Positions 994-28,591 of a stretch of 28,727 nucleotides of DNA are shown here, piece after piece (position 1 is the first letter of the stretch; the number at the start of each line of letters is the position of its first letter). Both the position numbers and the translations under genes were made by a program. Source of the DNA: a virus; IMG/VR virus record IMGVR_UViG_3300013102_000058, positions 1 through 28,727 of that record, one strand, 5' to 3'. The notes below the pieces were generated by a model. That model was not told where the DNA came from and ran no database searches. It saw nothing but the letters and a program-made list of their open reading frames with translations.

Positions 994-1000
994 GTGGAAC
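994..1000 (+). promoter_or_regulatory. TTGGAAC-type motif (GTGGAAC), putative phage promoter/activator element
   Basis: This is the one-mismatch member of a heptamer family found before seven genes. It lies 5 nt after the terL stop and 61 nt before the tail fibre ATG. It shares the following pyrimidine and the C five bases after the heptamer seen in most copies (GTGGAAC then TGACC). No consistent sigma-70 -10 box follows at a fixed distance. Function is inferred from position and recurrence only. Confidence 0.5.
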
Positions 1001-1021
1001 TGACCCCTAAGTTACTTATTT

Positions 1022-1066
1022 GCCATAACTACCATAGATCAATAAATCATATGGGTGAGTTATGGC
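1022..1066 (+). promoter_or_regulatory. Leader hairpin covering the ribosome-binding site and start codon of the tail fibre gene
   Basis: A perfect 9-bp inverted repeat, GCCATAACT (1022-1030) and AGTTATGGC (1058-1066), encloses a second 5-bp stem, CCATA (1032-1036) and TATGG (1050-1054), with a 13-nt loop. The right arm contains the ATG (1062-1064) and part of the Shine-Dalgarno GGGTGAG. In a full-length transcript this would hide the start site, which suggests translational control. If transcription began inside the left arm the hairpin could not form, as in phage genes whose early read-through transcripts are silenced. Confidence 0.6.
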
Positions 1067-2600
1067 TATTAACTTCTTTTTAACTGACGCAGGTCGGAAT
1101 GCATTAAATAAAGTAGGTGATGTCGCTAGTTTTGGTGGGGAGTTGACCCATCTTGCTGTTGGTACCAGCAAATTTGATGCATCAGTAGAAGCAAAAAACC
1201 TAACTTCTCTGAAAAATGAATTAGCCAGATTTTCTCTTAACGGTGGTGGTGTAGATACAGAGACTGGTACTTTGCGTTTTGTGATGAGTATTGAGCCAAC
1301 TTTAACAATGGAAGTGTTTGAGCTGGGCATTTACCTATCAGATGGCACTTTACTAGCAGTGGCCTCAACTACAGCAGCTCAATCAATCATGTCTTTACAT
1401 GCGAACGTAGTAGCCATAGTTACGTTTGGATTTGTTTTAACTGACGTTAATTTAAAAAACGTAAATATCAAGATTGATCCAAATACACCAATTGCTGTGA
1501 TGTTGATGAACCAGCATAGTGCTGATGAAGACCCACACCCGCAATACGGGGCTCTAATTCGTAAGCTCATGACTGAACATAACCAGCATGAGGATCCACA
1601 CCCACAATATGCATTTGAGAAGGATGTAAAAGCCAAAGACGATGATTTACAACATCAGATTGATGGTCTAGATCTTAGTTCAAAGAACTTTATACAGCAG
1701 TTAATTGATTTCAAGAAAACCTTAGATGCTCAATATCCAAAATTAATCGGAGCAGGTGTAAATATTGGTAGCACTGCATTGATTGAATTAGGTGGCAAAG
1801 TTACAGATTTACGTGATTCAAAGTATGCAATCCATCTTACACCCGAAAGTTCACATGAAGCATGGAAGCTTACACGTGCGGAAAAAGGGTTCTCATATGA
1901 AGTGTGGGAGCGCTCAGGTCAAAACCGAATTGGATATTCAGGCACAGTGAATTGGTCTGTTATTCAAGTTGCTGCAGAAACACTAAACGATGGTAACGGC
2001 GATTACACAGTACCAGGTGTTTATATCATACCAATTCAACCAAAAGAGCTTAAAGAATTTATTCTAGTCGGTGCTGGTGGGGCTGGTGGTGGCAGTGTGT
2101 GGGAGTTAGGAGCATTGGCTCATGGAACCAATGGTACAGATACACGCTTACGTTTAAATGAGCTCGATTTGGCGGTCGTTGGCGGTGGTAAGGGCGGTAC
2201 CAGTGGTCAGTGGTCAAATGGTAGCGCTTTCTCAAATGGTGCTGGCGGTTTAGCTGGAACAATCACTATCACATCCAGTATTACTGAACTTTCAAGAAAA
2301 TCAGGTATTGCTGGTACAGCTGCAAACCAAACTAACCACAAAGGCGGCGCATCAGTAAGTCCAGTATCAAACTGGGGTGCTGGTGGTGATGGTGCCAATG
2401 GTGTTGGAGATGATGGCTGGGCACTTGGTGGTGGTGGTGCAAGTGGTTGTTTACTCATTTGCCGATATGTGAATTCAACCGAAAAAACTCAGTATATGAC
2501 TTTAGTTGTTGGTGAAGCTGGTCACACTACTGAAAGTAACGGCAACAGCGGTAAAGCAGGGATCGGTGGCTTTGCGCGTGTAAGTACTGTGAAAGCTTAA
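1062..2600 (+). CDS. Tail fibre / receptor-binding protein with glycine-rich C-terminus
   Basis: This is probably a distal or side tail fibre that contacts the host surface. The first ~150 residues resemble the baseplate-attachment region of P2 gpH-type fibres: MAINFFLTDAGRNAL, then LTHLAVGTSKF, then a segment ending in FELGIYLSDGTLLAVAS. Residues ~150-185 carry two copies of a DPHPQY motif (HSADEDPHPQY and NQHEDPHPQY), common at trimeric fibre joints. A helical stretch follows, then a beta domain around residues 240-300. From about residue 330 it is very glycine-rich (AGGAGGGS, GGGGASG), like the glycine-rich receptor-binding tips of some phage adhesins. The start has a GGGTGAG ribosome-binding site buried in a hairpin. 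Tail fibre is secure; the receptor is unknown. Confidence 0.82.
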   Translation: MAINFFLTDAGRNALNKVGDVASFGGELTHLAVGTSKFDASVEAKNLTSLKNELARFSLNGGGVDTETGTLRFVMSIEPTLTMEVFELGIYLSDGTLLAVASTTAAQSIMSLHANVVAIVTFGFVLTDVNLKNVNIKIDPNTPIAVMLMNQHSADEDPHPQYGALIRKLMTEHNQHEDPHPQYAFEKDVKAKDDDLQHQIDGLDLSSKNFIQQLIDFKKTLDAQYPKLIGAGVNIGSTALIELGGKVTDLRDSKYAIHLTPESSHEAWKLTRAEKGFSYEVWERSGQNRIGYSGTVNWSVIQVAAETLNDGNGDYTVPGVYIIPIQPKELKEFILVGAGGAGGGSVWELGALAHGTNGTDTRLRLNELDLAVVGGGKGGTSGQWSNGSAFSNGAGGLAGTITITSSITELSRKSGIAGTAANQTNHKGGASVSPVSNWGAGGDGANGVGDDGWALGGGGASGCLLICRYVNSTEKTQYMTLVVGEAGHTTESNGNSGKAGIGGFARVSTVKA

Positions 2601-2614
2601 ATAGGTGAAACAGT

Positions 2615-2893
2615 ATGAGAAATGACTATCGAAATGCTATTAGAGACTTAATTCACCGAAATCTTCAACAGAATAATATTCAGAATCTAATCGTTTGGGA
2701 AATTAAGGAGGATGAAGCTCAAGATCCTTCACTCTTAAGCTTCAAGCTTTATGGTTCTAGAAATCAAATTGATGCTGTGCTGGTGGCATGTGGTGCTAAT
2801 GGAATATGGGAAAAGTTGCCACTTCAAAAGGTAGCCTTCCCTAAGCTGGTCGATCTTTTGAGACTTCAAAAAGAATATTTGCAGGATAATTAA
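2615..2893 (+). CDS. Small LysM/tail protein X-like protein, possible baseplate component
   Basis: A 92-residue protein, 14 nt after the fibre stop, with AGGTG as ribosome-binding site. Residues ~40-85 (LSFKLYGSRNQID, then ACGANGIWEKLPL, then a closing FPKLVDLLRL) follow the pattern of small LysM-like phage baseplate proteins such as P2 gpX or T4 gp53: a YG turn, a helix ending in NGI, then a proline that begins the last strand. Such proteins sit in the baseplate and may bind peptidoglycan or pack against the hub. The similarity is a pattern seen by eye and short, so the assignment is tentative. Its position between a fibre and virion-type genes fits a structural role. Confidence 0.45.
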   Translation: MRNDYRNAIRDLIHRNLQQNNIQNLIVWEIKEDEAQDPSLLSFKLYGSRNQIDAVLVACGANGIWEKLPLQKVAFPKLVDLLRLQKEYLQDN

Positions 2894-2894
2894 T

Positions 2895-4025
2895 ATGTCA
2901 GCATTTAAGCCAGATGAATTACGCCGTGCTCAGCTGCAAATAAATCAATCATTGCAGAGTGGTGGCGTACGCAGAGATCAACAGAGTCGCCAACGTGCAG
3001 ATCGAGAACAACGGGCATTTGCCGAAAAAGAAATTGAATATGATGATTGGGGACGAAAGATCCCTAAACCTATGTTCTTGCGGCCACATGATATTGCCCA
3101 AGGTGAAAAGTATGATGTTGAACGAGTACTTTTTACTACGTTAGGTCAGCAAAACGGAGAGGTGCCACGGCGTATCACACGTGACGATATATTGGCATTT
3201 CAAGAAAACATTCAACTTTTAAAAGATCAGTATAGTAAAGGTATTACCCCTCAAAACATTATTAATTTAAGCAGGCAAGATGATATTGATCGGGCAAATG
3301 AGCAAATCTATTTGGCGGTACCAGTCAGTAGAAAAGCTGGTTTAGTGCACTTACTCACTAATGCTGGTCCTAAAAGTAAAGTTTTAAATCATCATGTCGA
3401 AATAGAGTTCTCAAACTTTAAATCAGTCGTTTTTGATATCGATAAACAAGCATTTACCACTATTAAAAATCGCTTGGCAAAAGGCAAAATCAAATTTCAG
3501 TGTGATTGCGAACGTCATACCTTCTGGTACCGCTATATGGCAACAATTGGTGGTTATAACCTAGGTCGAGATGAAGGTGGGTTCCCGAAAATACGAAACC
3601 CACACTTGTCTGGTGTAGCTTGTAAGCATGTCTTGCGTGTTGTGAAGTGGATAAGTTCTCCATCAGGCATTGCATATCTTAAAAAGGAAGTTGAGAAAGA
3701 TCGTCAGAAACAAGTTGGTGCTCGCTATAAGCAAACCGATAAGCAGATACAGAATTCTATTAACGAACAAGTAAAAGATGTGATGAGTGGTTCTACGAAA
3801 CCGATTAAAGCAAATATTCAAAAAGCCGAAAAAGAAATGATGCGTAGAGCAGATAAAGTTGCGAAAAAGCTCTTAGAACGCGAATTGAAAACCCTCAAAC
3901 GTTTTGAATCAGAAACTGTTAGAGCCAGTCAAATTGAAAGAATTCAGGCATTGCATAAGTCGGGTGCTATTGATCAGAGCATGTTAAATGTCTTTATGAA
4001 AGGTTTAGGTAAAAATGCTAAATAG
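2895..4025 (+). CDS. Virion-associated protein with SWIM-type zinc motif
   Basis: A 376-residue basic protein of unknown exact role. Its middle has C203-D-C205 and then C243-K-H245, the CxC...CxH signature of SWIM-type zinc binding, with an aromatic segment (FWYRY) after the first pair and KIRNPHLSG before the second. I recall proteins with this C-C/C-K-H plus RNP arrangement in structural modules of other large phages, function unsettled. The N-terminal ~100 residues are charged and Gln/Arg-rich. Residues ~255-370 are lysine-rich, helical and probably coiled coil. The start has an AGGAT ribosome-binding site. It overlaps the next gene by 11 nt, so the two are likely co-translated. Nucleic-acid or protein binding through the zinc site is inference. 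Confidence 0.5.
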   Translation: MSAFKPDELRRAQLQINQSLQSGGVRRDQQSRQRADREQRAFAEKEIEYDDWGRKIPKPMFLRPHDIAQGEKYDVERVLFTTLGQQNGEVPRRITRDDILAFQENIQLLKDQYSKGITPQNIINLSRQDDIDRANEQIYLAVPVSRKAGLVHLLTNAGPKSKVLNHHVEIEFSNFKSVVFDIDKQAFTTIKNRLAKGKIKFQCDCERHTFWYRYMATIGGYNLGRDEGGFPKIRNPHLSGVACKHVLRVVKWISSPSGIAYLKKEVEKDRQKQVGARYKQTDKQIQNSINEQVKDVMSGSTKPIKANIQKAEKEMMRRADKVAKKLLERELKTLKRFESETVRASQIERIQALHKSGAIDQSMLNVFMKGLGKNAK

Positions 4026-4908: not shown

Positions 4909-4932
4909 GTCCTCATTGTTGGGGACTTTTTT
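4909..4932 (+). terminator. Rho-independent terminator
   Basis: Stem GTCCTC (4909-4914) pairs with GGGGAC (4921-4926) with one G-U pair and a 6-nt loop, followed by six T residues. It ends the fibre-to-4862 unit, and a TTGGAAC motif begins 4 nt later. Confidence 0.75.
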
Positions 4933-4936: not shown

Positions 4937-4943
4937 TTGGAAC
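4937..4943 (+). promoter_or_regulatory. TTGGAAC motif upstream of the major capsid gene
   Basis: An exact TTGGAAC directly after the terminator. The 20 bases from here match the minus-strand copy at 25854 closely (both run TTGGAACCG, then AGA, then TTAATAAA). Distance to the preferred capsid ATG at 5017 is 73 nt, within the 61-75 nt range of the other copies. It is probably the promoter or activator site for the capsid gene (inference). Confidence 0.6.
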
Positions 4944-5016
4944 CGACCAGAATTAATAAAAATGGCCCATGTCAGACTTTCTTCAACTTACAACGCAAGC
5001 CAAAGGCTGGTTTAAA

Positions 5017-7788: not shown

Positions 7789-7814
7789 AAAAACCACTTT
7801 CGAGTGGTTTTTTT
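7789..7814 (+). terminator. Rho-independent terminator
   Basis: A perfect stem AAAAACCACT (7789-7798) and AGTGGTTTTT (7803-7812) with a TTCG tetraloop and T tract. It ends the capsid-accessory unit; a TTGGAAC motif follows after 3 nt. The A/T symmetry means it could also act on the other strand. Confidence 0.88.
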
Positions 7815-7817: not shown

Positions 7818-7824
7818 TTGGAAC
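7818..7824 (+). promoter_or_regulatory. TTGGAAC motif upstream of the sheath-like gene
   Basis: An exact TTGGAAC right after a terminator, 68 nt before the ATG at 7893. The downstream bases TAGCCAGAAAATCAATAA resemble the capsid-gene copy. Putative start of a new transcription unit. Confidence 0.6.
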
Positions 7825-7841: not shown

Positions 7842-7884
7842 ACGCCCGCAGCTCAAAATACGTAAAACAAATAGCCTTGGGCGT
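7842..7884 (+). promoter_or_regulatory. Leader inverted repeat before the sheath-like gene
   Basis: ACGCCC (7842-7847) and GGGCGT (7879-7884) are perfect complements with a 31-nt loop, and the right arm ends 8 nt before the ATG. No standard Shine-Dalgarno is present, and the G-rich right arm occupies its place. The arms are short and the loop long, so stability is uncertain. The start region also reads ATGTAATG, a two-codon ATG-TAA overlapping the true ATG. Confidence 0.4.
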
Positions 7885-10349: not shown

Positions 10350-10356
10350 TTGGAAC
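10350..10356 (+). promoter_or_regulatory. TTGGAAC motif upstream of the tube-like gene
   Basis: An exact TTGGAAC immediately after the terminator T tract, 68 nt before the ATG at 10425. A GATATAA lies about 19 nt downstream, but an equivalent box is not found in the other copies, so a host sigma-70 reading is not supported across the family. Confidence 0.6.
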
Positions 10357-10389
10357 CAATCAACTTTGAAAGGGATATAACCTTTTACT

Positions 10390-10421
10390 CTTGGTGCATA
10401 TAAAAGCTATTGAGCATCAAG
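10390..10421 (+). promoter_or_regulatory. Leader hairpin abutting the tube-like gene start
   Basis: CTTGGTGC (10390-10397) and GCATCAAG (10414-10421) form 8 bp with one G-U pair and a 16-nt loop. The stem ends 3 nt before the ATG at 10425, so the place where a Shine-Dalgarno would lie is in the right arm. The TTG at 10410 lies in the loop region. This geometry repeats in other TTGGAAC leaders. Confidence 0.5.
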
Positions 10422-10424
10422 ATT

Positions 10425-11515: not shown

Positions 11516-12408
11516 TGCAAATCACCATTGTATCTGCGGGTAAGATAATTCCAGCATCTGAGCTTATCAGTGCAACTTTACGTACAGATCTCGTACCTAT
11601 ACCAGCATCAATAGAGTTCACAGTCCAATCAACAGCAGAATTAGACTCCCTTTTGAAAGAAGGGGAGCAATTAACTGTAAATGATATTTCTCATCCATTT
11701 GAATTAATCAAAGTCACACCCCTCAAGACTCAAACAATCAAACAAGATCGGCGTGTGGGTGGCATCTCATGTATCGGTATATTGGCTGGCTGTAAAAGAC
11801 TTATCGAATATTCAAAGCAAGCTGTTATCAGTAATGAAACCTCTTTTAATTCTGTAATACGGGCGTGTGGTGCAACCATAAGTTTAGGCAGTGATTTACC
11901 ACTACCAAAATTTGTTTGTCTCAAAGGAAGAATGCCAACCCAACGTTTGGCTCATTATCTGCAACAAGAAGCAGCAGTTATTTGTTTTCAAAAAAATAAA
12001 GTATCAGCACAAAAAATTGATTCTTTATTCAAGCAGGAGGCTATCACAAAGCTCGATCCAAGTAGTGTTGTTTGGATTTCCAGTAAACCTTTGGAACTGA
12101 TGCAAAAGTCATCATTCGTGACAGTTGAAAATAATGGTTCAACGGTTGTTGGTGATGACTCAATAACCCCTGGACATACTGTTACTCAAAGAGCAGGTTT
12201 AGATGCCCGTCAAGTCAAAAACTTGGAAAAAGTTTTGATTATGAGAGGGACAGTAATTAGACCTTTAAATTTGAACTGGAATGCAGGCGATATATTTGAA
12301 ATTGATAGTAAAAAGTATGTCGTTCTAACAGCAGCCCATCATATAGATACAGGTGCAATCGGGGGATCAATGGGGACTTCATCAAAGTTCTGGATTGCAA
12401 ATTTGTAG
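11515..12408 (+). CDS. Baseplate hub protein candidate (gpD/gp27-like)
   Basis: A 297-residue protein just upstream of the spike gene, with a GGGGAG ribosome-binding site and a TAATG overlap. The layout fits a baseplate hub of the T4 gp27 / P2 gpD class: an N-terminal beta domain with LVPIPASIEFTVQS and EGEQLTVNDISHPFELIKV, a central helical part (SFNSVIRACGATISLG, then RMPTQRLAHYLQQEAAVICF), and a C-terminal barrel including GTVIRPLNLNWNAGDIFEI and KYVVLTAAHHID. Hub followed by a gpV-type spike is the usual order in contractile tails, and the hub trimer forms the seat for the spike. Sequence similarity is weak by eye; synteny carries most of the weight. Confidence 0.55.
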   Translation: MQITIVSAGKIIPASELISATLRTDLVPIPASIEFTVQSTAELDSLLKEGEQLTVNDISHPFELIKVTPLKTQTIKQDRRVGGISCIGILAGCKRLIEYSKQAVISNETSFNSVIRACGATISLGSDLPLPKFVCLKGRMPTQRLAHYLQQEAAVICFQKNKVSAQKIDSLFKQEAITKLDPSSVVWISSKPLELMQKSSFVTVENNGSTVVGDDSITPGHTVTQRAGLDARQVKNLEKVLIMRGTVIRPLNLNWNAGDIFEIDSKKYVVLTAAHHIDTGAIGGSMGTSSKFWIANL

Positions 12409-12417
12409 GTTAAATAT

Positions 12418-15400
12418 ATGAATGGTTTCACACGTGCAAAGATTTTAAGTTACAACGCAAAAGTTCGTACTGCACAAGTACACATTCATGGTTTAACCGA
12501 TGGAGCAAGCGAAGGTATTACTGCAACTTTCGCTTATCCGGTAGGTGATAGTGACTTAGACACAGAAATTCAAATTATTGACGGAGAAGATGTGTATGTC
12601 TTCTTTGAAAATGGCAATGAAGAGCGACCAGTTATTCATAGCTATGTCAGTCACGGTGACGGCGCGATTGTTGGGGTGCGCCGTATTCGACAAGATAATA
12701 TTGAGTTTATCTCTAAAGAAAATTTAAAAGTAGATTCTGGCACAACTGTATCGATCAAAACACCATTGATGAATGTACAAGCCAATATACAACAAACTGG
12801 TAATAGCACCTTAACGGGAAATAGTACTGTTGTAGGGGATACTTCAGTAGCTGGAAATAGTGCTGTTGCGGGTAGTATGGCCGTTGGTACAACTCTTACG
12901 GTTGCTGGAATTCCTATTGATCCCAAAGCATTTCAAGGTGCGCTTCAAGATGCAATTGATAAATTGGAGGAACTAAAAGAAGAATTAAAAGAGCAAGGTG
13001 AAAAAATTGATGAAAATAAAGATCAAGTAAGCCAAGAAATTGATGAAAAAATAAAAGAAGTAGAAGAGTTAATAGATAATATTAAAGACTCTGATGCTTA
13101 TAAATTGCTTGAAGAAGGCATTAATCACATCGATGAGGAAGTGCAAAAAATTCATGACCAAGTAAAAGAAGTAGGTCAGATTGCACAGAATAAAGTAGAT
13201 GAAGTTCGTGCTTATATTGATCAAGAAATTATTGATACCAAACTGATTGTTGAACAGCATGCTAATGATGCAAATATTCGTTTAGATGAAGCAAATCAAC
13301 GTATTGATCAATCAATTCAGGTAAATGAGGAATTGGTGGCAGATGCTCAGCAACGCGCTATACGTGCTGAGAAAGATCTTGATGACAAAATTGGATTAAT
13401 CAAGAGAGAAACAGATTCTATTATTGCTGACGTGAGAAGTGATTCTGATGAAATTCGCTTAGCCGCTGAGAATGCAAAAAAAGTAGCAGATCAAGAAGTT
13501 ATTGACCGTAAAAAACAGGTAGCCGATGCACTTATTGTTATAGACCAAACCAAGGCAGCACTAAAGCAAGATATTGATCAAAACTTAGTTAAAGCTGGTC
13601 AAATGATTGATGATGCTAAAGTAGCTTTGGGGGACCAAACTAATACACTCATTAATCAAAAAATTGAGCCGATTGTAAGCCAAACTGAAGCTGCTGTTAA
13701 AAAAGTAGATCAAGTAGCAGCACAGTATGTTGATCTTGATGAAAAGGTTGATGCTGGCCTTCTAGCAGAATCTGAAGCACGGGCAAATGATAAAGAGGCA
13801 CTAACTCAAAGTTTTGAGCTCAAGTTTGCTGAAATGCAAAATGAAATAGGTAAATCAAATGCCTTAATCTCTGAAGAAACTAAAACTCGTGTAGCTCAAG
13901 ATAAAGCTATTACTGAACAAATTAGTACAGCTCAATCTCAAATTGGGGATAACAAAGCTGCTATTAATAGTGTTGAAAGAACTGTTGTTGATCTAAATAA
14001 ATCTGTTGTTGAAAAAACTGGTCAATTGCAAGCAAGTCTTGATACAGCAAATTCAAATATTTTAAATGCTAATGATTTAGCTCGAATGCAGTCACTAGGT
14101 AAACCGCTCCGTGATGACCCTACATTCAAAGAAACCAATAATTTAACTGCATATGTTAATCAAACTGGTTCTACATATACACGCCAAGCGAAGTCGGCTG
14201 ACAATCCAACTACCTCTACACATGAAATCCTAATTCGATCTACCGGTTTATTAGGTTCGGGCTGGTTCCCGAATACACCTTTGCTATCTGCTGCGGCCAA
14301 TAAAGTTTTTTTAGTAAAGCAAATCCTTAAAATACCAGTAGGCTTAAAACTTCAACCCTATGGCAATGCTTTGGGAACTGGTGGATTACTGAAAGTTCTT
14401 GGTAGTGCAGAAGGAACGGGAAAATTTGAAATTTACTATTCTGTAATCAAGTGTGGTCCTGATATTGGCTCAACGATTCAAGGTCATTTCAGACCTATCA
14501 ATAGTATAAATCCACCAGTCGCTTCAGTAGAAAAACCAGTTGATGTAATTGTTGCTTCATATGAAGTTTGGGATGTCACCACTGTTAATGACACAATTCC
14601 GAAAACTTGGCGTGATCAAGTTACAGGTAATGCTTCATATATTGAAAAAGTAGAAGCCTCAGTAAAACTTGTCGATGATAAAGTAGTTTCAGAGGCCCAA
14701 AAGCTTGAGGAACTTAAAACTGACTACAGTTCAAATAAGACAAAAACAGAATCAAATTTAGTAACAATCACAAAATCCGTATCTGACGGTGATAAGGCTT
14801 TATCTTTACGCATTGATCAAACAAAAGCAGATTTTGAAGAAGCAGACAGACAATCAAATGCAAATATTCAAGAAGTAACTGAATCTTTGGCAGAATTTGA
14901 AGAGGCAACAACTACAAAATTTTCTAGTTTAGATACTAGTATCTCTAAAGAAAATCTAAAAGTTCAAGGTCAAATCATAGATGTCCAAAAGAGCGTATCA
15001 ACGTTAGAAGATAATACAAATATTAAAATATCTGGCCTTACGTCTTCAATTAAGTCCACTGATGATGTGGCAAAGCTAGCTTTTAATAATGCAGCAGAAG
15101 CTCAGCAAACTGGCACAACAGCGGTAAAGGCTACTGAAGCACTGGCTCAAAATTTATTAAGTTTAAAGTCACAAACTCAAGTAACTACGGGTGTACGTGC
15201 AGTCGTAACTTCAAAAGGGATTGATGATTGGACTACTTGGCGCGCGACTGGTGAAGCTAAAGTAATTCAAGATACAAATGCATTGGGTGGATATATTCTT
15301 GAGCTTGGGAATAATGCTGGCAATGATGAAGCTTGGGTTCATTGGAAAGAATTCGTAAAAATTAATCCAGATACTCTTTATAGAGTTCGCGCACGATTCC

Positions 15401-18400: not shown

Positions 18401-21400
18401 GTACTTATACATTTGATACTAATCTTGTTGATTTACAACATATTAATGTGATTCTGTATGCTCAAGTTGGATTTGCTCCTGATTTTTTAATTCGTGAAGT
18501 TCAAATTGAAAAAGGTGAGTTAGCAACTGGTTTTAGAAAAAATCCTCGTGAACTTGAAAAAGGGTTAGTGGCTAATGCAACTGCAATTGAAGGTACCAAG
18601 GCAGATGTAAAAAAGAATGGTGAACAAATTGCATCCATTTCTGAAAATTATGTAACTTTAAAATCTGCGGTCGATAATAATAAATTATCTGCTGATGGTA
18701 AGTTTCAAGAAATTAACTCAACCATTAGTGATAACCAGCAAAACACGACACAATCAATCACAAATTTAGAATCAGGTTACAAGCAATTAAACCAAGATTT
18801 AGGACAGGTTTTTAACTATCGTGTTTATTCATGTGGTTGGAATGGCTTTTTCACAGGTATCAAAAATCTAAAAGGTGAAATTAAATCTGTTGCTTCAGCT
18901 CGTGGTTTTTCAGTTCATGTTCTTGCTGCAGACGGGTCAATTGCTACTTCCACTCGATACGATACATATGCAGCTATCGCAAATGCTACGGCGATGAGTA
19001 ATGCTATCGCGGCAATTCCAAATGATACCTTTGTTATTGTCACAAACTACGACAGTATCGGAGTAAATATTGCTACCGTAAAAAATGCATTAATTTCACT
19101 TGGTGCAAACCCATTTACAATTGATCAAATCACTGGGCGTGATGCTTACATTCTGGTAGGTCAAAAAGGAATTGGGTCAGGTCGAGGTATCGAATTACAT
19201 TCAACACCAGATACGGGCCCGAATGGAGCCAAACAAATCATGCTTGCAGTGCAGGTCGTAAGTGGTATTCCGATTGGTTTGGCAAACAACAGTGGTAACC
19301 TTCAAAAGGTCTTAGAAAACCACGCTCAAATTCTTCAAGAAAAGATTACTCGTTCAGATGCGAAAGAAGTATTTGCAGAAGAAATTAAGGTCTTTAAAGC
19401 ACAACTAGATATTTTACGATATTCAGAAGAGAACTGGATTTTACTTGGTGACGATACAAAAAATTTAAGTATCGCAACAGGAACTAACAGAACAGTTGCT
19501 GTTTGGGAACTTCAATATAAACATAAAGAAATTCCTATTGATAAAGGTGATCCAATAGTAGCCCGTATCAAATATACAGCTGCTGCCGGATTAGTTGGCG
19601 CGACTTGTAGCATTCAATTTCATGGAGCAACTTATAGCATTGGATTGCCAACATTTATAGTTGCTGCAAGCGGTGAAATAGAATTGACAGGTATTTTCCC
19701 ATCTGATGTAAAAGCAACTGCATTTGAAGCAATTCCATTAGGATTACGCTTTGATAATGCACCGTCTGGTGGAACTTTTACGATTACTAATATGTTTATC
19801 AGCCGAGGTAATTCTGCACCTAATTTTAAAGGAGGTTTTAGATCTTCTCTTAAGCAAAATGCACAGTTTGTAGAAGATACCTTTATCAAAGCAGATGCAA
19901 ATAAAGGCGTTATTGCTCAGCAGATTCAACAATATGATGCTGGTGTACCTGGTGGATTATCTACAGTAGTGAAAACTACAAAAGCTACAGCTGACCAAAC
20001 TTCACAAGATCTCGCAACTCTTCGAAATACTGATATTTCACAGTTACAAACAAGTACTAACAATCTTGGTTCGGCATTAGAGAACACAACAATGCTGGCA
20101 ATGATGATTACGAATGGGAAATTGTTGCAAGGAGATGTGAATTTTAAGAAAGGCGTTAATGGTGTAGGACTGTATAACAATGCTGGAAATGGTAATGTTT
20201 CAGTCACACGTGTTACCAAGAGTGCTGACAATCCAACTACTTCTACTCATGAGATAGAAATTAAAACTATTGGAGCTGCAAATCCTACTTTTGGTGGTTT
20301 CTTTCAACTTGTGTATGGTCGTGCAAATGCTGTATTTGTCATTAAGTATTTAATCAAATTACCAATCGGCTATAAGTTAGTAATAGCTGGCAACTCTATG
20401 GGTACAGGTGCTATTGAACGATTTGTAGGTAGTGCAGAAGGGACAGGTAAATTTGAAACTTACATTCGACTGATCAAATGCGGCGCTGCAGGTTCTTTCT
20501 CAAACTCAGGACATGTTTATGTAGCGGGTGGACCAACTCCAACTGCTTCGGCACCTTTAATTTGGACATTAGCTCAAATTGAGCAATACGATGTAACTGA
20601 TTACGCTTCAGCCGACCCAACATTACAAGATTTTGTTTCTACGGCCACGGATTCAATTTCGACCCTTACAAACTTTAAAGAATCATGGGCAGCCAAGTTA
20701 GTTGAGATGTCTTCAAAGTTAGATAGTAAAAACAGCGCTTATATTTTGAATGCTGATATTACTAATACAACTATTGATAGAGCAATTGCAGCGTCATCTC
20801 AGAAATTAACATCTGAATATACAACTGCTATGAGCGTTCAACCTCTTAGTTCAGGTGCTGGAAAGATATTCGATAAACCTTTAACTTGGCGGCAGCCGGT
20901 TACAACCTCAGGCACATTAGTCATTAAAACGCCAATCACTATTAACGCGTACATGACGAAGATTAAAATCTCTGGTTATAACTATAATAATAAAGAAGAT
21001 AATACTTTTGATATGGATCTAGCATTTTATGCTTATACGTCCACCACACCTTTTTATCAGAACATGACAGCTCGTTCATTTGGGATAACAATGGATGAAA
21101 CTAATGCGATCACGAAAGGTTTGGCTTTAGCTTTAGATAGCAACAATAAAGTATGTATTTTGATAACCAAAAAAGATGCTTGGTCTTATCCAGCAATTAC
21201 TGTTGAATCAGCAACAATTACTCATACTAATCCACCAGATTACTTCAAAGATGGCTGGTCAGCGGCAATTGAAACGGATTTATCTGTGTATAAATCAGTA
21301 ACTCCATTTACAGTCACTTCCGCGATGGAAACGACTGCAGGTTCACAAGCCAAAGTTGATGTTCCAATGGCTCAGTTAAGTGATATTGCTGCAGACAATA

Positions 21401-24090
21401 AACTTACGCCAGTTGAGAAAAAACAGGCGAGGTTGGTTTGGGATACGCTTTATCAAACTGATACGAGCTTAAGAGCTGAAGCAGTTACTTATGGGATATC
21501 TTCAAGCGCTTATGCTACAGCTTTTAGTACGTTAAATACCTATTTGGCCGCTTTATTTGCCAACATGAATGTGACCAGTACTATTGATCGTAACCAATTT
21601 ATTACTAATTTTGCGAATGTTCATAATGCACGGCAAGAGCTGGTTCGATTAATCTCTGAAAAAGCTAAAAGTCTTGCAGATAGTGCTCAAAATAGTGCAA
21701 ACAGTAAATCAAAAACATTTACAACACAGCCTACGATTCCTTACGCGCAAGGTGATATCTGGAAAAATGGTACCACTGTTTCAGTTGCAACTATTGGAAG
21801 AACTTCAGGTTCATTTATAGCAGCGGACTGGACAAAAGTGGGCGATATTACATCTGAAAATACAGCAAATGATGTAATCAATGTAAATGGCGTAGCTGCA
21901 GCAACAGTTTCTGCTAATGCTCAATTAGGTAAAACACTCTCAGATAATATTATGTCTGATCTTGTTATTACGCCTGTAGAAAAATCTAGTTTGAATAATG
22001 AATGGAATAGGATAAAAGCTGAATATTCGAACTTACTTGCTCAAGCGACAGCTTTAAATGTTACGAGTTCTGCTTTTACAGCAGCTTATAACACAATTAA
22101 TGGTAGTGTTCCCCGTATTGAGTTAGATGTGCTAGTTAGTATGACGACTAACTATACGATGACCGCTGCAAATAGAGATGCATTTAAGGCGAAACTTAAG
22201 GCTTATTATGACCAAGCTGAAGCAATAGCAAAGTCGATAACTGATACTGTAAATAGCTCAGCAACAAACGCTCAAAACATTGCAAATAGTAAGTCAAAAA
22301 CATTTACTGCTCAGCCTACAATTCCTTATTCTCAAGGTGATATCTGGAAAAATGGTACAGCTGTTTCAGTTGCAACAGTAGGGCGAACTTCTGGTTCATT
22401 TATAGCAGCGGATTGGATTAAAGTAGGCGATGTAACTTCTGAAAATACGGCTGCTGATACCACAAAAGTAAATGGTGTACTTTCAGCAACAGTAACTGCC
22501 AATGCCGCAGCTGGTAAGCAAATTGCCGAAGATGTGATGTCGGATTTAGTTATTACGCCAACAGAGAAGTCAGCTTTGTACAATAGCTACAAAGATATGG
22601 AGTCCAATTTTAACCGGTTGCAGAACTTAGCTAATCCGTGGGGTATCTCTGTTACTGCAGCTAAGACATCTTGGGATAATTTGAATAATGTTTCCCCTAA
22701 ATTTTTCATAGATATTATTTCTACGACAACATCAAAAACTACTTTAACAGCTGCTCAACGGGACTCTTTAAAAGGAAGGATTAATACTTTCTATACTGAA
22801 GTCGCTAATTTAGATAAGGCAGTTACAGAGTACTTGAATAAAGCTGCAACTGATGCAAAGGATCTTGCTGCAACGACTAAAGCAACCTTAGAACGTGATT
22901 ACCTGACTTCATCAAAAACTAATGAAGCTATAGCCTCATCAACTGAACGGATGACAGCGTTATATTCAGCGAACAGTCAAAAAATCATGGCCTCTGTACT
23001 AGATACTTGGTTTAAAGATTGGCTCATTAAAACTCCAACTGGAAATAAACCAGAGATGACCATTGTTGCTGATGCAACATGTCGAGGGGGATATGCGCTC
23101 CGTATTGGTAACAACAGTGGAAATGACGAAGCTTGGATAAATTGGTTTGCCTCTTTACCTATTGATGACAACAAATACTATCGAGTGAAGTATAGATTCC
23201 GCCGTGTAAGTGGTACAGGTGTTGTTTATGTAGGTGCAACATGCCAGAACGCCACGAAAACAAAATATGTAGCTCAAGATAATACGGAAATTAATGATGT
23301 AGGTTCGAGTCATTACCTGGTTGCTGGTACCGCACCTGCGTTGGGTACTTGGATTACTGGTACCGCTTATTTCAAAGGAAGATCGGCGGGTGCAAGCGCT
23401 GGTGCTGGAACTCTTCTTAGTCCAAAAACATTTGCAAACAAAGCAGCATTTTTTACGCCAGTGTTTATTGGCAACTATTCAGGTAAGGCAGGTGAAGTAG
23501 ATCTTGATTTCATTGATATTGAAGATGCAGACAATATTGCAGATTTTGAAAACTTCAAAACCACATATACAACTGATGTGGGTGCTTATGCTGGTGCATT
23601 ACAAACATTAGTTTCTGTTTACGGCCAAAATGCCATAAAGCTTAAGTCACAAGCAGACTTGATCGATGGTGTGAAGGGTAAGTATGTAATGGGTATGGAC
23701 AATAACGGAGTGTTCTCTGGAATGTCTATGGTCAGTGAGCAAACGAATGGAACTGTAGTCAGCTCTATAGGTTTTCAAGCGGATAGAATCTTTTTCACAA
23801 CTGGTTCTTCTTCTACAAAGTACATGCCTTTCATTATTCAAGACAATCAAGTGATTATGAATAGTGATGTATTTATTAAGAATTTGACCGCTGCAAACTT
23901 CAAAGTAAAGTCATTGACTGCTGATTTATTTAATGTAGATAAATTGAGTGCAATTGCTGGTGAGTTAGGGACCTTAACAACTTATAAAGATCCTGCAAAG
24001 CCAACAGGTGCACGAATGGTTTTAAGCGGCAGCTTAATTACAGTATACGACGATAATAACGTTGTCAGGGTGAAATTAGGGCTGTGGTAG
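12418..24090 (+). CDS. Giant tail-tip protein: gpV-like spike N-terminus fused to a J-like fibre
   Basis: A 3,890-residue protein. Residues 1-85 look like the OB-fold of baseplate assembly protein V / gp5-type spikes (ARILSYNAKV-like start as FTRAKILSYNAKVRTAQVHI, then VYVFFENGNEERPVI). Residues 100-165 are short strand repeats (TGNSTLTGNSTVVG), and ~165-550 is coiled coil. Then come beta modules, several with repeats: ~555-728 and ~2559-2731 (pair), ~924-1106 and ~3524-3708 (pair), jelly-roll-like modules near 1187-1323, 1412-1547, 1877-2045 and 2340-2475, another near 1636-1801, and an ILEI/FAM3-like domain at ~2132-2281. Residues ~2988-3500 hold tandem ~195-residue repeats. The last ~140 residues (KYVMGMDNNGVFSG to VVRVKLGLW) match the end of J-type tail-tip proteins. 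It probably makes a long trimeric central fibre for host binding. The ribosome-binding site is weak (TAGG). Confidence 0.75.
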   Translation: MNGFTRAKILSYNAKVRTAQVHIHGLTDGASEGITATFAYPVGDSDLDTEIQIIDGEDVYVFFENGNEERPVIHSYVSHGDGAIVGVRRIRQDNIEFISKENLKVDSGTTVSIKTPLMNVQANIQQTGNSTLTGNSTVVGDTSVAGNSAVAGSMAVGTTLTVAGIPIDPKAFQGALQDAIDKLEELKEELKEQGEKIDENKDQVSQEIDEKIKEVEELIDNIKDSDAYKLLEEGINHIDEEVQKIHDQVKEVGQIAQNKVDEVRAYIDQEIIDTKLIVEQHANDANIRLDEANQRIDQSIQVNEELVADAQQRAIRAEKDLDDKIGLIKRETDSIIADVRSDSDEIRLAAENAKKVADQEVIDRKKQVADALIVIDQTKAALKQDIDQNLVKAGQMIDDAKVALGDQTNTLINQKIEPIVSQTEAAVKKVDQVAAQYVDLDEKVDAGLLAESEARANDKEALTQSFELKFAEMQNEIGKSNALISEETKTRVAQDKAITEQISTAQSQIGDNKAAINSVERTVVDLNKSVVEKTGQLQASLDTANSNILNANDLARMQSLGKPLRDDPTFKETNNLTAYVNQTGSTYTRQAKSADNPTTSTHEILIRSTGLLGSGWFPNTPLLSAAANKVFLVKQILKIPVGLKLQPYGNALGTGGLLKVLGSAEGTGKFEIYYSVIKCGPDIGSTIQGHFRPINSINPPVASVEKPVDVIVASYEVWDVTTVNDTIPKTWRDQVTGNASYIEKVEASVKLVDDKVVSEAQKLEELKTDYSSNKTKTESNLVTITKSVSDGDKALSLRIDQTKADFEEADRQSNANIQEVTESLAEFEEATTTKFSSLDTSISKENLKVQGQIIDVQKSVSTLEDNTNIKISGLTSSIKSTDDVAKLAFNNAAEAQQTGTTAVKATEALAQNLLSLKSQTQVTTGVRAVVTSKGIDDWTTWRATGEAKVIQDTNALGGYILELGNNAGNDEAWVHWKEFVKINPDTLYRVRARFRRLSGETGSIYLGVACKTADQTKYVTTTNNLAADMGSSNYLLSAVKPILGEWQEVVLYLKGKSTGAATGLGTIDNPRTFPAQAEFYAPMFIGNYSAQPGISQLNFIIIEDNNSLASANDSTATANELFKTATTRTDAEAERTSKIEARVENTETGVKNNAEALLKTATKSDLDSAMSRVSTDITAAVQNIKVGGVNVVANSEGPRTSTAATSREYLMYERSKELKAFYDENLDKPVTISFEMSVPVAGAVLVYSSNGSAHNFSTPVTATKANEFQKYEVTVFPKLHTGSTTESTIEFYGTYTTGRIPTIQRLQIEAGNKATAWSPSPRDVQSSLSANAEAIKVTQADVKKQGDSLSSQSIDISKLRNDLTLTNSEVSKKASSEALETTKSQVTEQAGQIKAVVEQSNTLSANLNKSAPAGTNLLINSNVVGSYNGVSYPHLRYKLGEDWEVGAKYTLLWCAEHSRGTGDTNSNLAVYAGGGSQFLQQIINTAGKVISKITFTKNTAGTAKEIQFYMLNKPTADKQSVGTIFWAVLVKGEFITTDSWIASPYDFNAAFDQVSANLTEFKQTYVTERDALAQRTSKLEVGMTDVEKNIFNTAQALNNYATNAKLDEVTASQTKTFNTSLTKLDEALKSANDSDSLAGDYNCKNPDMWYSHYGYDMSQYFKTTTTGKIGNTVFRKDTSNPVTCFNYNKQALPNTRAYLVSFLVRRSADSNGLCYIPIGRAKNDGVFAIGNYTSVSVPISEIPANENWILISKVINMTSVADTFPQIQLGIGLGHTGNAGWWEAQAYRIAPVFNESDVDSTIVKSSILIDYSSKSDTTKAISAVTESLEAKFRQKFGDLWTNSSATLDSTRYTKTETNQAIAEESKIIKAAISSSGGDNIIKNGDFSKPLEISNWRQNAVVAGSLFELYKDSNGTTWGHFKSTNTTTYFKGFIETITLAEGLEANQKYTLSFKAKSLTAAQTQIFLIIHRRDAAGSNNQIGTTWNNISTDKEILCTYTFDTNLVDLQHINVILYAQVGFAPDFLIREVQIEKGELATGFRKNPRELEKGLVANATAIEGTKADVKKNGEQIASISENYVTLKSAVDNNKLSADGKFQEINSTISDNQQNTTQSITNLESGYKQLNQDLGQVFNYRVYSCGWNGFFTGIKNLKGEIKSVASARGFSVHVLAADGSIATSTRYDTYAAIANATAMSNAIAAIPNDTFVIVTNYDSIGVNIATVKNALISLGANPFTIDQITGRDAYILVGQKGIGSGRGIELHSTPDTGPNGAKQIMLAVQVVSGIPIGLANNSGNLQKVLENHAQILQEKITRSDAKEVFAEEIKVFKAQLDILRYSEENWILLGDDTKNLSIATGTNRTVAVWELQYKHKEIPIDKGDPIVARIKYTAAAGLVGATCSIQFHGATYSIGLPTFIVAASGEIELTGIFPSDVKATAFEAIPLGLRFDNAPSGGTFTITNMFISRGNSAPNFKGGFRSSLKQNAQFVEDTFIKADANKGVIAQQIQQYDAGVPGGLSTVVKTTKATADQTSQDLATLRNTDISQLQTSTNNLGSALENTTMLAMMITNGKLLQGDVNFKKGVNGVGLYNNAGNGNVSVTRVTKSADNPTTSTHEIEIKTIGAANPTFGGFFQLVYGRANAVFVIKYLIKLPIGYKLVIAGNSMGTGAIERFVGSAEGTGKFETYIRLIKCGAAGSFSNSGHVYVAGGPTPTASAPLIWTLAQIEQYDVTDYASADPTLQDFVSTATDSISTLTNFKESWAAKLVEMSSKLDSKNSAYILNADITNTTIDRAIAASSQKLTSEYTTAMSVQPLSSGAGKIFDKPLTWRQPVTTSGTLVIKTPITINAYMTKIKISGYNYNNKEDNTFDMDLAFYAYTSTTPFYQNMTARSFGITMDETNAITKGLALALDSNNKVCILITKKDAWSYPAITVESATITHTNPPDYFKDGWSAAIETDLSVYKSVTPFTVTSAMETTAGSQAKVDVPMAQLSDIAADNKLTPVEKKQARLVWDTLYQTDTSLRAEAVTYGISSSAYATAFSTLNTYLAALFANMNVTSTIDRNQFITNFANVHNARQELVRLISEKAKSLADSAQNSANSKSKTFTTQPTIPYAQGDIWKNGTTVSVATIGRTSGSFIAADWTKVGDITSENTANDVINVNGVAAATVSANAQLGKTLSDNIMSDLVITPVEKSSLNNEWNRIKAEYSNLLAQATALNVTSSAFTAAYNTINGSVPRIELDVLVSMTTNYTMTAANRDAFKAKLKAYYDQAEAIAKSITDTVNSSATNAQNIANSKSKTFTAQPTIPYSQGDIWKNGTAVSVATVGRTSGSFIAADWIKVGDVTSENTAADTTKVNGVLSATVTANAAAGKQIAEDVMSDLVITPTEKSALYNSYKDMESNFNRLQNLANPWGISVTAAKTSWDNLNNVSPKFFIDIISTTTSKTTLTAAQRDSLKGRINTFYTEVANLDKAVTEYLNKAATDAKDLAATTKATLERDYLTSSKTNEAIASSTERMTALYSANSQKIMASVLDTWFKDWLIKTPTGNKPEMTIVADATCRGGYALRIGNNSGNDEAWINWFASLPIDDNKYYRVKYRFRRVSGTGVVYVGATCQNATKTKYVAQDNTEINDVGSSHYLVAGTAPALGTWITGTAYFKGRSAGASAGAGTLLSPKTFANKAAFFTPVFIGNYSGKAGEVDLDFIDIEDADNIADFENFKTTYTTDVGAYAGALQTLVSVYGQNAIKLKSQADLIDGVKGKYVMGMDNNGVFSGMSMVSEQTNGTVVSSIGFQADRIFFTTGSSSTKYMPFIIQDNQVIMNSDVFIKNLTAANFKVKSLTADLFNVDKLSAIAGELGTLTTYKDPAKPTGARMVLSGSLITVYDDNNVVRVKLGLW
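14079..14600 (+). repeat. Internal module A, copy 1 (pair with 20092-20610)
   Basis: Encodes residues ~555-728 of the giant tail-tip protein. It shares with copy 2 the segments KSADNPTTSTHEI, a K-I/L-P-x-G-x-K-L strand, and GSAEGTGKFE followed by IKCG. At DNA level the stretch encoding SADNPTTSTHE is nearly identical. Suggests duplication of a beta module. Confidence 0.75.
15188..15735 (+). repeat. Internal module B, copy 1 (pair with 22988-23540)
   Basis: Encodes residues ~924-1106 of the giant protein. Shared landmarks with copy 2 are LGNNAGNDEAWVHW versus IGNNSGNDEAWINW, YRVRARFRRLSG versus YRVKYRFRRVSG, and F-x-x-P-x-FIGNYS near the end. It looks like a carbohydrate-binding-type beta sandwich; binding is inferred from style only. 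Confidence 0.75.
20092..20610 (+). repeat. Internal module A, copy 2
   Basis: Encodes residues ~2559-2731. Matches 14079-14600 in KSADNPTTSTHEI, GSAEGTGKFE and IKCG landmarks, and ends before a similar Q-Y-D-V/W-D-V segment. The copies lie about 2,000 residues apart in one chain. Confidence 0.75.
21379..22900 (+). repeat. Tandem ~195-residue repeats in the giant protein
   Basis: Units begin at about 21379, 21955 and 22540; the last two starts are exactly 585 nt apart. Each begins S-D-x(5-9)-TP-x-EK and continues with helices. Units 1 and 2 also carry the SKSKTF(T)xQPTIPYxQGDIWKNG segment and RTSGSFIAADW, where the DNA of the two copies is almost identical (around 21700-21850 and 22285-22435). 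The third unit lacks the IWKNG part. This fits recent unequal duplication. Confidence 0.85.
22988..23540 (+). repeat. Internal module B, copy 2
   Basis: Encodes residues ~3524-3708, just before the J-like C-terminal region. Matches copy 1 in GNNSGNDEAW, RFRRVSG, the GSSHYLVA strand and FIGNYSG. The two copies have diverged at DNA level, so the duplication is older than that of the tandem repeats. Confidence 0.75.
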
Positions 24091-25772: not shown

Positions 25773-25847
25773 GAGCTTTTCCTCTAAAAACAAATAAAAA
25801 ATATGTGCAAATAGAATTGCATGCTGTGAATTTATTAAATCTGTACG

Positions 25848-25854
25848 GTTCCAA
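25848..25854 (-). promoter_or_regulatory. TTGGAAC motif on the minus strand
   Basis: Plus-strand GTTCCAA, read as TTGGAAC on the minus strand, 75 nt before the minus-strand ATG at 25772. Its extension TTGGAACCG, AGA, TTTAATAAA is almost the same as the capsid-gene copy at 4937. It faces away from the plus-strand copy 6 nt to its right, giving a divergent pair. Confidence 0.6.
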
Positions 25855-25860
25855 TTTGCT

Positions 25861-25867
25861 TTGGAAC
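25861..25867 (+). promoter_or_regulatory. TTGGAAC motif upstream of the portal gene
   Basis: An exact TTGGAAC, 65 nt before the portal ATG at 25933. It forms a divergent pair with the minus-strand copy at 25848-25854, which shows that the element is directional. Confidence 0.6.
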
Positions 25868-25890
25868 TCATCTAATAGTTAAAAAATGGT

Positions 25891-25927
25891 AGCCATCAAA
25901 ATACTTAATTATTTAGGTATTTTGGCT
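25891..25927 (+). promoter_or_regulatory. Leader hairpin abutting the portal gene start
   Basis: AGCC (25891-25894) plus AAAATAC (25898-25904) pair with GTATTTTGGCT (25917-25927): 11 bp with a 3-nt bulge (ATC) and a 12-nt loop. The stem ends 5 nt before the ATG at 25933, and no Shine-Dalgarno is visible. The following TTTGTT is too short and interrupted for a confident terminator, though attenuation is possible. Confidence 0.55.
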
Positions 25928-25932
25928 TTGTT

Positions 25933-27468: not shown

Positions 27469-28121
27469 TGGCTTTTTTTGAATATGAAACACAGAATAAA
27501 ACGTCTAATAACAGTTTTGGTAATGTTTTAAATCCCTTCAAAGAACGTTTTGCAAGAAATCCTGTTTTGTGGTCTGGTTTAACAGTTGATAAAGCTGTTT
27601 CTCATTATCAAGAACTTTATGCATTAGGAACTCTCTCAGCTGCACACTTTGGAATAGAAATTCGACCTTATCGTGCAACTAGTAAGATTGCCCAAGCAAA
27701 TATTCCAATTTTTGATCCTTCAAATAAAATTGCCTGGTTAGCTAATAATGTAGATGTATCACTTCTTGATGCACAAACCGATGCAGTTCATGTGGGGCAC
27801 TTTCAACTCAACCATGTAACTGGCAATGCTTCAAATGAGTTGAGCATTTCATTTATTGAGACTAAAGAAGCAGCTATTGCGAATAGCGCTAAAGCTATAA
27901 AAGAAATAATGTTTAATAAAGACGGTACTCAATCGCCACCAATTGAATACTTAATGAGATTAAAAATATATGCTTTTGATAAAGCTGCAAGAAATCAGAA
28001 CCAATTTGAAATTGAGCATTTAGTTTCACTACAAGCAGGCAATTTGCCACTTGATGCCTCTAATAAAGCACATGCCATTGTTACTTTAAATTTCACCAAA
28101 ATGTTTCCCAACTTTAAATAG
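27468..28121 (+). CDS. Putative tail-tube-fold or neck protein downstream of the portal
   Basis: A 217-residue protein co-translated with the portal through a TAATG overlap, with a GAGGAAG ribosome-binding site. The second half resembles tube-fold tail proteins: HVGHFQLNHVTGNASNELSI, then SFIETKEAAIANSAKAIKEI, then IEYLMRLKIYAF, and a terminal AIVTLNFTKMFPNF strand. In T4 the tube gene gp19 lies next to the portal gene gp20, which supports a tube or tube-like role here. The N-terminal ~60 residues are polar and helical. Since another tube-like protein is encoded at 10425, one may be the tube and the other a tube initiator or terminator; the sequence does not decide which. Confidence 0.42.
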   Translation: MAFFEYETQNKTSNNSFGNVLNPFKERFARNPVLWSGLTVDKAVSHYQELYALGTLSAAHFGIEIRPYRATSKIAQANIPIFDPSNKIAWLANNVDVSLLDAQTDAVHVGHFQLNHVTGNASNELSISFIETKEAAIANSAKAIKEIMFNKDGTQSPPIEYLMRLKIYAFDKAARNQNQFEIEHLVSLQAGNLPLDASNKAHAIVTLNFTKMFPNFK

Positions 28122-28131
28122 AGTTGGGAAA
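28104..28131 (+). other. Inverted repeat across the end of the 27468-28121 gene
   Basis: A perfect 10-bp repeat, TTTCCCAACT (28104-28113) and AGTTGGGAAA (28122-28131), with an 8-nt loop holding the stop codon TAG. It is followed by AAAAAC and not a T tract, so it is a poor terminator on the plus strand. It lies between convergent genes and might slow both polymerases or protect mRNA 3' ends. Confidence 0.5.
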
Positions 28132-28141
28132 AAACAAACAA

Positions 28142-28519
28142 TTATAAATATATTACATGAATTATTTTATCTGCAGGGATATCAGAATGAATTTTAAGAT
28201 CTGTATCTTTTAACTGATATTTTTCTTTATATTCTTCATTGTTAAAAATGAAATCTAGATTTACAGCAATTAAAACAGGTGAAGTTTCGGATTTAGATAT
28301 TGCATATTTTTGGCTTATTCTTATTGACTTATTAAAATAACATGCTTGGAATTGTGAATGCTCTTTTTTAAAACCGGATTTAAGTATTTTTTTATAATTT
28401 TCTAAGCTAGTTCCATGAAAGAAAATATTACTGTTTTGATAAAGAGGATGGTTTAATTCACTATTGTCAATATTTTGAAGATGTTCGAAATAAGCTTGAA
28501 TATCATTTTGTGTATACAT
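28142..28519 (-). CDS. Small ADP-ribosyltransferase-like protein (PARP/Tpt1-type pattern)
   Basis: A 125-residue protein from the ATG at 28519 (TTAGG 7 nt upstream). Its core matches the NAD-binding pattern of PARP/Tpt1-like transferases: NIFFHGTSLENYKKILKSGF (HGT, then N, then IL..GF), a YFNKS strand, RISQKYA (S..KYA), and a VLIAVNLDF strand, with ADKIIHVIYL at the end. The HGT and tyrosine positions are right; the third catalytic position is not clear. Known phage relatives in function, such as T4 Alt and Mod, modify host RNA polymerase, but those are different in sequence. Upstream the frame stays open and reads KRDRIVSLLILLGC, like a lipoprotein signal, but has only a TTG at 28540 or non-standard start codons. 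It is the third minus-strand cargo-type gene here. The target is unknown. Confidence 0.55.
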   Translation of the reverse strand: MYTQNDIQAYFEHLQNIDNSELNHPLYQNSNIFFHGTSLENYKKILKSGFKKEHSQFQACYFNKSIRISQKYAISKSETSPVLIAVNLDFIFNNEEYKEKYQLKDTDLKIHSDIPADKIIHVIYL

Positions 28520-28584
28520 ACTACAACCTAATAAAATCAATAAACTAACTATTCTATCTCTTTTTAATAAATTATGTTTATTTC

Positions 28585-28591
28585 TTGGAAC
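28585..28591 (+). promoter_or_regulatory. TTGGAAC motif upstream of the last gene
   Basis: An exact TTGGAAC, 63 nt before the GTG at 28655. It lies in the gap between the minus-strand ADP-ribosyltransferase-like gene and the plus-strand gene at the window end. No minus-strand copy is seen for the former. Confidence 0.6.

Follow-up and report, generated by a model that had tools for sequence, protein, structure and literature searches.

The closest described systems for the element considered here come from the phages P1, P2, 186, and T4. P1 has about a dozen dispersed late promoters that depend on Lpa (gp10), lie before the morphogenesis and lysis operons, and combine a box with a -10 element but without a -35; the box, a 9-bp inverted repeat (AAGTGACTT), sits at -22, 4 nt from the -10. 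The late promoters of the temperate phages P2 and 186 depend on the activators Ogr and B and carry an upstream box, which in P2 is TGT-N12-ACA and is read by a C4 zinc finger (PMC3931495). In the middle promoters of T4, a phage box stands in place of the -35 before a host -10; this MotA box, TGCTTtA, is centered at -30, 12 nt from the -10 (PMC2988021). Finally, some T4 genes (e, soc, 49, and I-TevI) have their ribosome site hidden in read-through RNA, while RNA from an internal late promoter lacks the 5′ arm of the structure (PMC3014915). Here, we describe a recurrent heptamer, TTGGAAC, in the 28.7-kb IMG/VR virus record IMGVR_UViG_3300013102_000058, analyzed over its whole length and called the window below. 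The heptamer very probably forms the upstream half of a bipartite late promoter that depends on an activator and is shared by a family of P1-like temperate phages.

What kind of phage does the window come from? Its predicted proteins include a terminase, tail fiber, baseplate, sheath, tube, giant spike, and portal (sheath and tube identified by PHROG), and the portal shares ~24% identity with that of P1. The closest named phage is Acinetobacter phage vB_AbaM_ABMM1 (ABMM1), with 87% DNA identity across the first 8 kb. Based on the portal likeness, the virion gene content, and the ABMM1 match, we take the window to be the virion-gene cluster of an Acinetobacter P1-like temperate phage. IMG/VR contains about a hundred near relatives, and the diverged relatives include Acinetobacter plasmids and prophages of Acinetobacter and Alkanindiges. 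ABMM1 served as the complete-genome relative for whole-genome promoter counts.

An earlier note, made from the letters of the window alone, had placed exact TTGGAAC at 4937, 7818, 10350, 25861, and 28585 on the plus strand and at 25848 to 25854 on the minus strand, with GTGGAAC at 994 on the plus strand. It gave the distances from heptamer to start codon as 61 (994), 73 (4937), 68 (7818), 68 (10350), 75 (25848, minus strand), 65 (25861), and 63 (28585) nt. These positions, directions, and distances are all correct, as is the pyrimidine that directly follows the heptamer at each of the seven sites. A C as the fifth base after it is indeed found at six of the seven and amounts to a weak preference only across the wider regulon. 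Exact copies number 12 in the window, compared with 3.96 ± 1.94 in shuffled sequences (0 of 100 shuffles reached 12), and six of the 12 fall within the 1,134 noncoding bases, which make up 3.9% of the window (P = 2.8e-6). The note's "about five" coding copies become six on counting.

What lies downstream of the box? The note had reported no shared -10 element there, and in this it was mistaken. An A at position 31 and a T at position 35 after the heptamer are found at all seven window sites, and none of 5,000 shuffles reached seven of seven at any offset. In ABMM1, the same pair accompanies 11 of 12 promoter copies versus 6 of 19 coding copies; in Acinetobacter oleivorans it is present at nine of nine sites, one base closer to the box; and no other offset comes near this signal in four genomes pooled. 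The pair corresponds to the key A(-11) and T(-7) of a sigma-70-type -10 at fixed spacing (downstream consensus CAAAATA, general form nAnAAT), which is found at 7/7 window, 11/12 ABMM1, and 9/9 A. oleivorans sites and at 8/8 sites of Xanthomonas phage Rb1. A -10 at a fixed gap of about 30 nt makes this a bipartite, sigma-70-like promoter, in which GGAA[C/T] is followed by a 29- to 30-nt gap and then the -10 box; no -35 hexamer was seen between the two. Transcription usually starts 6 to 8 nt after the -10, and class II activators bind at about -48 to -42. Counted from a start predicted in this way, the box would lie at about -48 to -42, and the leaders would be 20 to 33 nt long. The putative promoter elements of the window, with -10 boxes called by the A31/T35 rule unless more is said, are as follows.

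994..1000, plus strand: activator box GTGGAAC, tail-fiber gene promoter (ATG 1062); ABMM1 counterpart ATGGAAC at 2678
1030..1035, plus strand: -10 box TACCAT, tail-fiber promoter
4937..4943, plus strand: activator box (exact TTGGAAC), head-protein gene promoter (ATG 5017)
4973..4978, plus strand: -10 box CAGACT, head-protein promoter
7818..7824, plus strand: activator box (exact TTGGAAC), tail-sheath gene promoter (ATG 7893)
7854..7859, plus strand: -10 box CAAAAT, tail-sheath promoter
10350..10356, plus strand: activator box (exact TTGGAAC), tail-tube operon promoter (ATG 10425)
10386..10391, plus strand: -10 box TACTCT, tail-tube promoter
12091..12097, plus strand: coding-region box with GAAAAT at 12127-12132, a possible internal promoter 320 nt before the giant spike gene
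25848..25854, minus strand: activator box (exact TTGGAAC), divergent small gene (ATG 25772)
25813..25818, minus strand: -10 box AATTCT, divergent small gene
25861..25867, plus strand: activator box (exact TTGGAAC), portal operon promoter (ATG 25933); kept in 16/16 records
25897..25902, plus strand: -10 box CAAAAT, portal promoter; also from the 16-record comparison
28585..28591, plus strand: activator box (exact TTGGAAC), gene that starts at GTG 28655 and runs off the window; ABMM1 counterpart at 30706
28621..28626, plus strand: -10 box GAAAAT, promoter of the GTG 28655 gene

Prophages of A. nosocomialis and A. pittii have matches to both the box and the -10 of the 12091 site, which is possibly an internal late promoter. 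The divergent boxes at 25848 to 25867 form a palindrome, GTTCCAA-tttgct-TTGGAAC, that serves opposite genes, and the same arrangement is seen in ABMM1 at 28429/28442.

Other meanings of the box were tried and rejected. As for a conventional -35 whose -10 would follow after 17 nt, the A...T pair is depleted at the corresponding offsets, and the sheath promoters have no candidate there. An RNA motif is not supported either, as the spacer between box and -10 carries no folding signal (mean z, +0.14). The note had dismissed a sigma-54 promoter (TGGCACG-N4-TTGCW, with GC at -12), and rightly so: the downstream sequences in the window have no -12 GC at the right spacing, and the fixed element there is the A31/T35 pair.

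Is the promoter found beyond the window? A motif count over a complete genome and relatives, as the note had proposed, shows that 10 of the 19 exact copies in ABMM1 are intergenic (intergenic DNA is 8.5%) and that eight of these lie 63 to 73 nt before annotated starts. The bipartite pattern has 17 matches in ABMM1 against 0.75 expected, mostly before virion and lysis genes. An unbiased scan of all 7-mers 30 to 100 nt before ABMM1 starts, with no motif given, returned TGGAACT (P = 1.7e-7) and TTGGAAC (P = 2.9e-7) as its top two. Boxes in ABMM1 precede the fiber, head, sheath, tube, portal, baseplate, holin-lysin, and other late operons; as in P1, the operons served by the promoters are those for morphogenesis, packaging, and lysis. 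The ABMM1 replication and repressor region contains no intergenic exact copy except one before an operon encoding RusA and a helix-turn-helix (HTH) protein. Between its sheath-like and tube genes, ABMM1 carries a cassette (12082-14486) with antirepressor and RelE-type toxin genes; the box of this cassette, at 13455, is similar to the baseplate promoter at 38490, which hints at duplication of cassettes that carry boxes.

The same scan in diverged phage-plasmids found GGAACAA in A. oleivorans, GGTGGAA, more weakly, in A. soli, and, in A. defluvii, TAGGAATA (P = 5.8e-12), with 10 of its 13 copies located upstream of genes. In phage Rb1, with a GC content of 66%, the top 7-mer was GGAAAAA (6/7 upstream of genes; P = 6e-8), and the A...T pair follows its gene-near GGAAAA sites at 31 to 32 in 8/8 cases. 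The diverged boxes of A. oleivorans, A. defluvii, and Rb1 each have a -10 at about 30 nt. At the portal promoters, GGAA[CT]-N29/30-A[AG]AAT is kept in 16/16 records, including Alkanindiges, at portal identities of 35 to 100%; these records include close relatives and represent perhaps a dozen independent lineages. The head-gene promoter of a sibling with 95% identity has unrelated flanks and keeps the box and -10 (window 4937 versus sibling 29104). TTGGAAC, which the note took to be the element, is therefore one lineage's version of a promoter whose -10 half it had missed; the GGAA[C/T] core is what is conserved, with flanks that vary between related phages. In Pseudomonas P1-like relatives, the GGAA box was not found.

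Does the box belong to the phage or to its host? A host transcription factor could read it, the phage having adopted a host promoter type, and host RNA polymerase is presumably used, given that the -10 is sigma-70-like; no phage sigma factor or polymerase was recognized among the proteins examined. However, the bipartite pattern matches 16 sites in the A. nosocomialis and A. pittii genomes, 14 of them inside a prophage (7/8 in each genome), and the other two are at the level of a reversed-pattern control, which gave three in all. The box also differs from one related phage to the next and turns up again in a Xanthomonas phage, as expected of a phage-encoded reader. On the two-genome search we reject a host regulon, and we consider a host reader very improbable. 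The note's proposal of a phage-specific promoter or late-activator site is well borne out: the element is intergenic, directional, conserved, located before virion and lysis genes, and almost absent from host chromosomes. Its interpretation was right in kind but incomplete, and so is partly supported. Open-licence literature returned no relevant match on the motif or on Acinetobacter-phage late activators, and the word "promoter" does not occur in the ABMM1 paper.

Which phage protein might be the reader? Lpa (PF25716) was rejected, as a homologue was found in none of nine relatives and only in P1 itself; the best tblastn E value was 0.69. The nonstructural genes common to all four complete Acinetobacter relatives are a CI-like repressor and the pair phrog_7396 and phrog_7533, with a small Cro-like gene common to three of the four. 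phrog_7396 is an XRE-type HTH protein adjoining phrog_7533, a small-terminase-like gene. It is present in every complete Moraxellaceae relative and absent in P1; the pair, likewise absent from P1, occurs in every diverged relative with a contig that is not truncated on that side. The terminase small subunit of Rb1 resembles phrog_7533 (E = 4e-7), and a gene for an HTH homologue (E = 3.6e-11) is found shortly before it. In P1, pacA directly follows lpa, and phrog_7396, by preceding a small-terminase-like gene, is a positional analogue of Lpa. A box and -10 also accompany the phrog_7396 operon in three phages (ABMM1 and those of A. nosocomialis and A. pittii), and the HTH gene of Rb1 is closely preceded by a box; positive feedback of phrog_7396 on its own operon is possible. 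We would give phrog_7396 about an even chance of being the activator that reads the box. Somewhat less probable is a reader in the form of phrog_7533 or another unrecognized phage protein. phrog_7533 is equally conserved and adjacent and has a possible DNA-binding N-terminal region, but its resemblance to the annotated Rb1 small terminase points to packaging, and it is phrog_7396 that contains the HTH and stands before it as lpa does before pacA.

Some side observations may be mentioned. In the A. defluvii phage-plasmid (32314-33618; 434 aa), two copies of the phrog_7396 HTH protein are fused in tandem, as they are in Acinetobacter sp. CFCC 10889. In the ABMM1 record (59515-59565), the -10 of the promoter before the RusA-HTH operon is directly followed by a second box, CTGGAAC, possibly an autoregulatory site. 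In the A. soli (39973-41967) and P. atacamensis (27468-29744) phage-plasmids, a gene at or near the position of the large terminase is annotated as a Hint-domain homing endonuclease, which suggests that the terminase contains an intein. A lasso peptide gene cluster (19644-23874) is present on pGFJ2, the P1-like phage-plasmid of A. soli.

Could the motif instead serve as an operator through which phrog_7396, as a repressor, keeps late genes off in the lysogen? Most XRE-type HTH proteins are repressors, the box is close to the promoter, and its presence on the phrog_7396 operon in three A. baumannii-group phages would also suit autorepression. We nevertheless find this unlikely. The position of the box, upstream of the -35 at about -48 to -42 and at fixed spacing, is typical of activators; promoters without a -35 hexamer should need activation; these phages have a separate CI-like repressor; and a box on the phrog_7396 operon fits positive feedback.

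Many of the promoters share a further feature, a 7- to 11-bp inverted repeat between the -10 and the start codon. Its sequence varies and its place is constant, with the 5′ arm over the -10 and predicted start point and the 3′ arm over the Shine-Dalgarno region. The leaders of 38 promoters from four genomes have a mean folding z of -1.94, compared with -0.17 for 273 box-less genes (P = 1.1e-7; against intergenic controls, P = 8e-7). Nine further lineages replicated this (27 promoters; mean z, -2.34; controls, -0.21; P = 1.4e-6), in a set that includes portal promoters, some seen before the test. RNA that begins at the predicted +1 loses its structure (for example, from -18.0 to -1.7 kcal/mol), and on truncation the unpaired probability of the ribosome site rises from 0.31 to 0.62, versus 0.52 to 0.66 in controls (P = 1.5e-5). 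The folding statistics, with the predicted start, thus reproduce the layout of T4 gene e, in which one arm covers the late promoter and start and the other the ribosome site. In the window, the hairpins are clear at the portal (25861) and 28585 promoters, with a third at 10350; the 4937 and 7818 sites have a terminator directly 5′ of the box and no strong leader hairpin.

4909..4932, plus strand: intrinsic terminator-like hairpin and T6 directly 5′ of the 4937 box, called from sequence; same layout scored in ABMM1
7789..7814, plus strand: intrinsic terminator-like hairpin and T-run 5′ of the 7818 box, called from sequence; ABMM1 counterpart present
10389..10422, plus strand: inverted repeat TCTTGGTGC/GCATCAAGA over the -10 and leader of the tail-tube promoter; -11.3 kcal/mol, -2.1 from the predicted +1
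25896..25925, plus strand: inverted repeat CAAAATACTT/AGGTATTTTG over the -10, predicted start, and leader of the portal promoter; -11.5 kcal/mol, -0.6 from +1
28626..28649, plus strand: inverted repeat TATCCTCA/TGAGGATA over the Shine-Dalgarno of the 28585 promoter; -10.3 kcal/mol, -2.1 from +1

The ABMM1 counterpart of the portal leader hairpin has a z of about -5 to -6. In P1 (NC_005856), three of 11 late promoters, LPsit, LPdar, and LP23, overlap strong leader repeats on the ribosome site (z, -4.4, -3.3, and -2.5); the leader hairpin as a general trait of the P1 group is unsupported in P1 as a whole.

What are these hairpins for? They may insulate the late genes against read-through, a reading for which we judge the chances to be roughly balanced. 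It depends on the predicted start: with a true start ~12 nt more upstream, all late RNAs would include the hairpin, and another explanation would be needed. Several promoters have no usable -10 for such a start. Alternatively, the repeats may be mere terminators of upstream operons, compactly placed and without effect on translation. A T-run directly follows the repeat in several cases, making it terminator-like as well (ABMM1 38492, 62785, 69059, 72997, and 73769, each just before the ATG), and many hairpin promoters abut the preceding gene. Yet many hairpins without a T-run, such as those at 25861 and 28585 in the window, still cover the ribosome site, and the shift in accessibility exceeds that of controls. 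We regard the terminator explanation as quite conceivable, with the balance tipped slightly against it.

The motif, its conservation, its restriction to phages, and the hairpins can be read directly from the sequences, and they can be joined in the following scheme. A phage-encoded activator, most likely phrog_7396, would bind the GGAA[C/T] box and recruit host RNA polymerase, switching on the box-bearing virion and lysis operons together. Read-through RNA from upstream would carry both hairpin arms and hide the ribosome site, and some of it would end at the U-run. RNA begun at the late promoter would be without most of the 5′ arm and hence translatable. As a whole, this regulon-wide, self-insulating switch, with phrog_7396 as a previously undescribed activator and most late promoters embedded in hairpins that seal the late genes of the prophage, is a tentative proposal that could well prove wrong in part.

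Several points weigh against the bipartite late promoter and the scheme built on it. The start site is a prediction that depends on the -10 call, and the -10 is weak, its first T usually missing. The case for phrog_7396 comes from co-occurrence, position, and fold family; the XRE fold is equally compatible with a repressor; box and HTH co-vary along the phylogeny only; and a Pseudomonas plasmid relative has the HTH homologue, and the GGAA box was not found in it. The AlphaFold model of phrog_7396 is poor (mean pLDDT, 45.7). The leader hairpin is absent at some promoters, such as that of the sheath gene. Finally, the pattern that a hairpin replaces an upstream terminator had a P value of 0.005 in four genomes and of 0.69 in nine further lineages; as this exclusivity was not replicated, it is not claimed.

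The consensus allows late operons and start sites, and probably also the late activator, to be predicted in prophages of many A. baumannii-group genomes and their relatives. The late control of such relatives, for example, Xanthomonas phage Rb1, appears undescribed in the papers searched.

How does the system compare with those described at the outset? It is like that of P1 in its dispersed late promoters with a box and a -10 but no -35. It differs in the box, GGAA[C/T] at 29 to 30 nt from the -10; the window promoters have no inverted repeat at -22, 4 nt before the -10. Regulon-wide leader hairpins also set it apart from P1, where only dar, sit, and 23 score. P1-like phages thus appear to have exchanged their late control (Lpa with a -22 box versus an HTH protein with a -45 box) while keeping its genomic position. 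In P2 and 186, too, the phage is temperate and its late promoters combine an upstream box with dependence on an activator, but neither TGT-N12-ACA nor a C4 zinc finger resembles the GGAA box or phrog_7396, although no search aimed at a zinc-finger activator was made. As in T4 middle promoters, a phage box is combined with a host -10 in place of the -35, but at 29 to 30 nt from the -10 rather than at the MotA spacing. The hairpins recall e, soc, 49, and I-TevI, which are a few single genes in T4; here, they are predicted at most promoters of a temperate-phage regulon and are sometimes fused to a terminator. If this is true, a trick of single T4 genes is used across a regulon.

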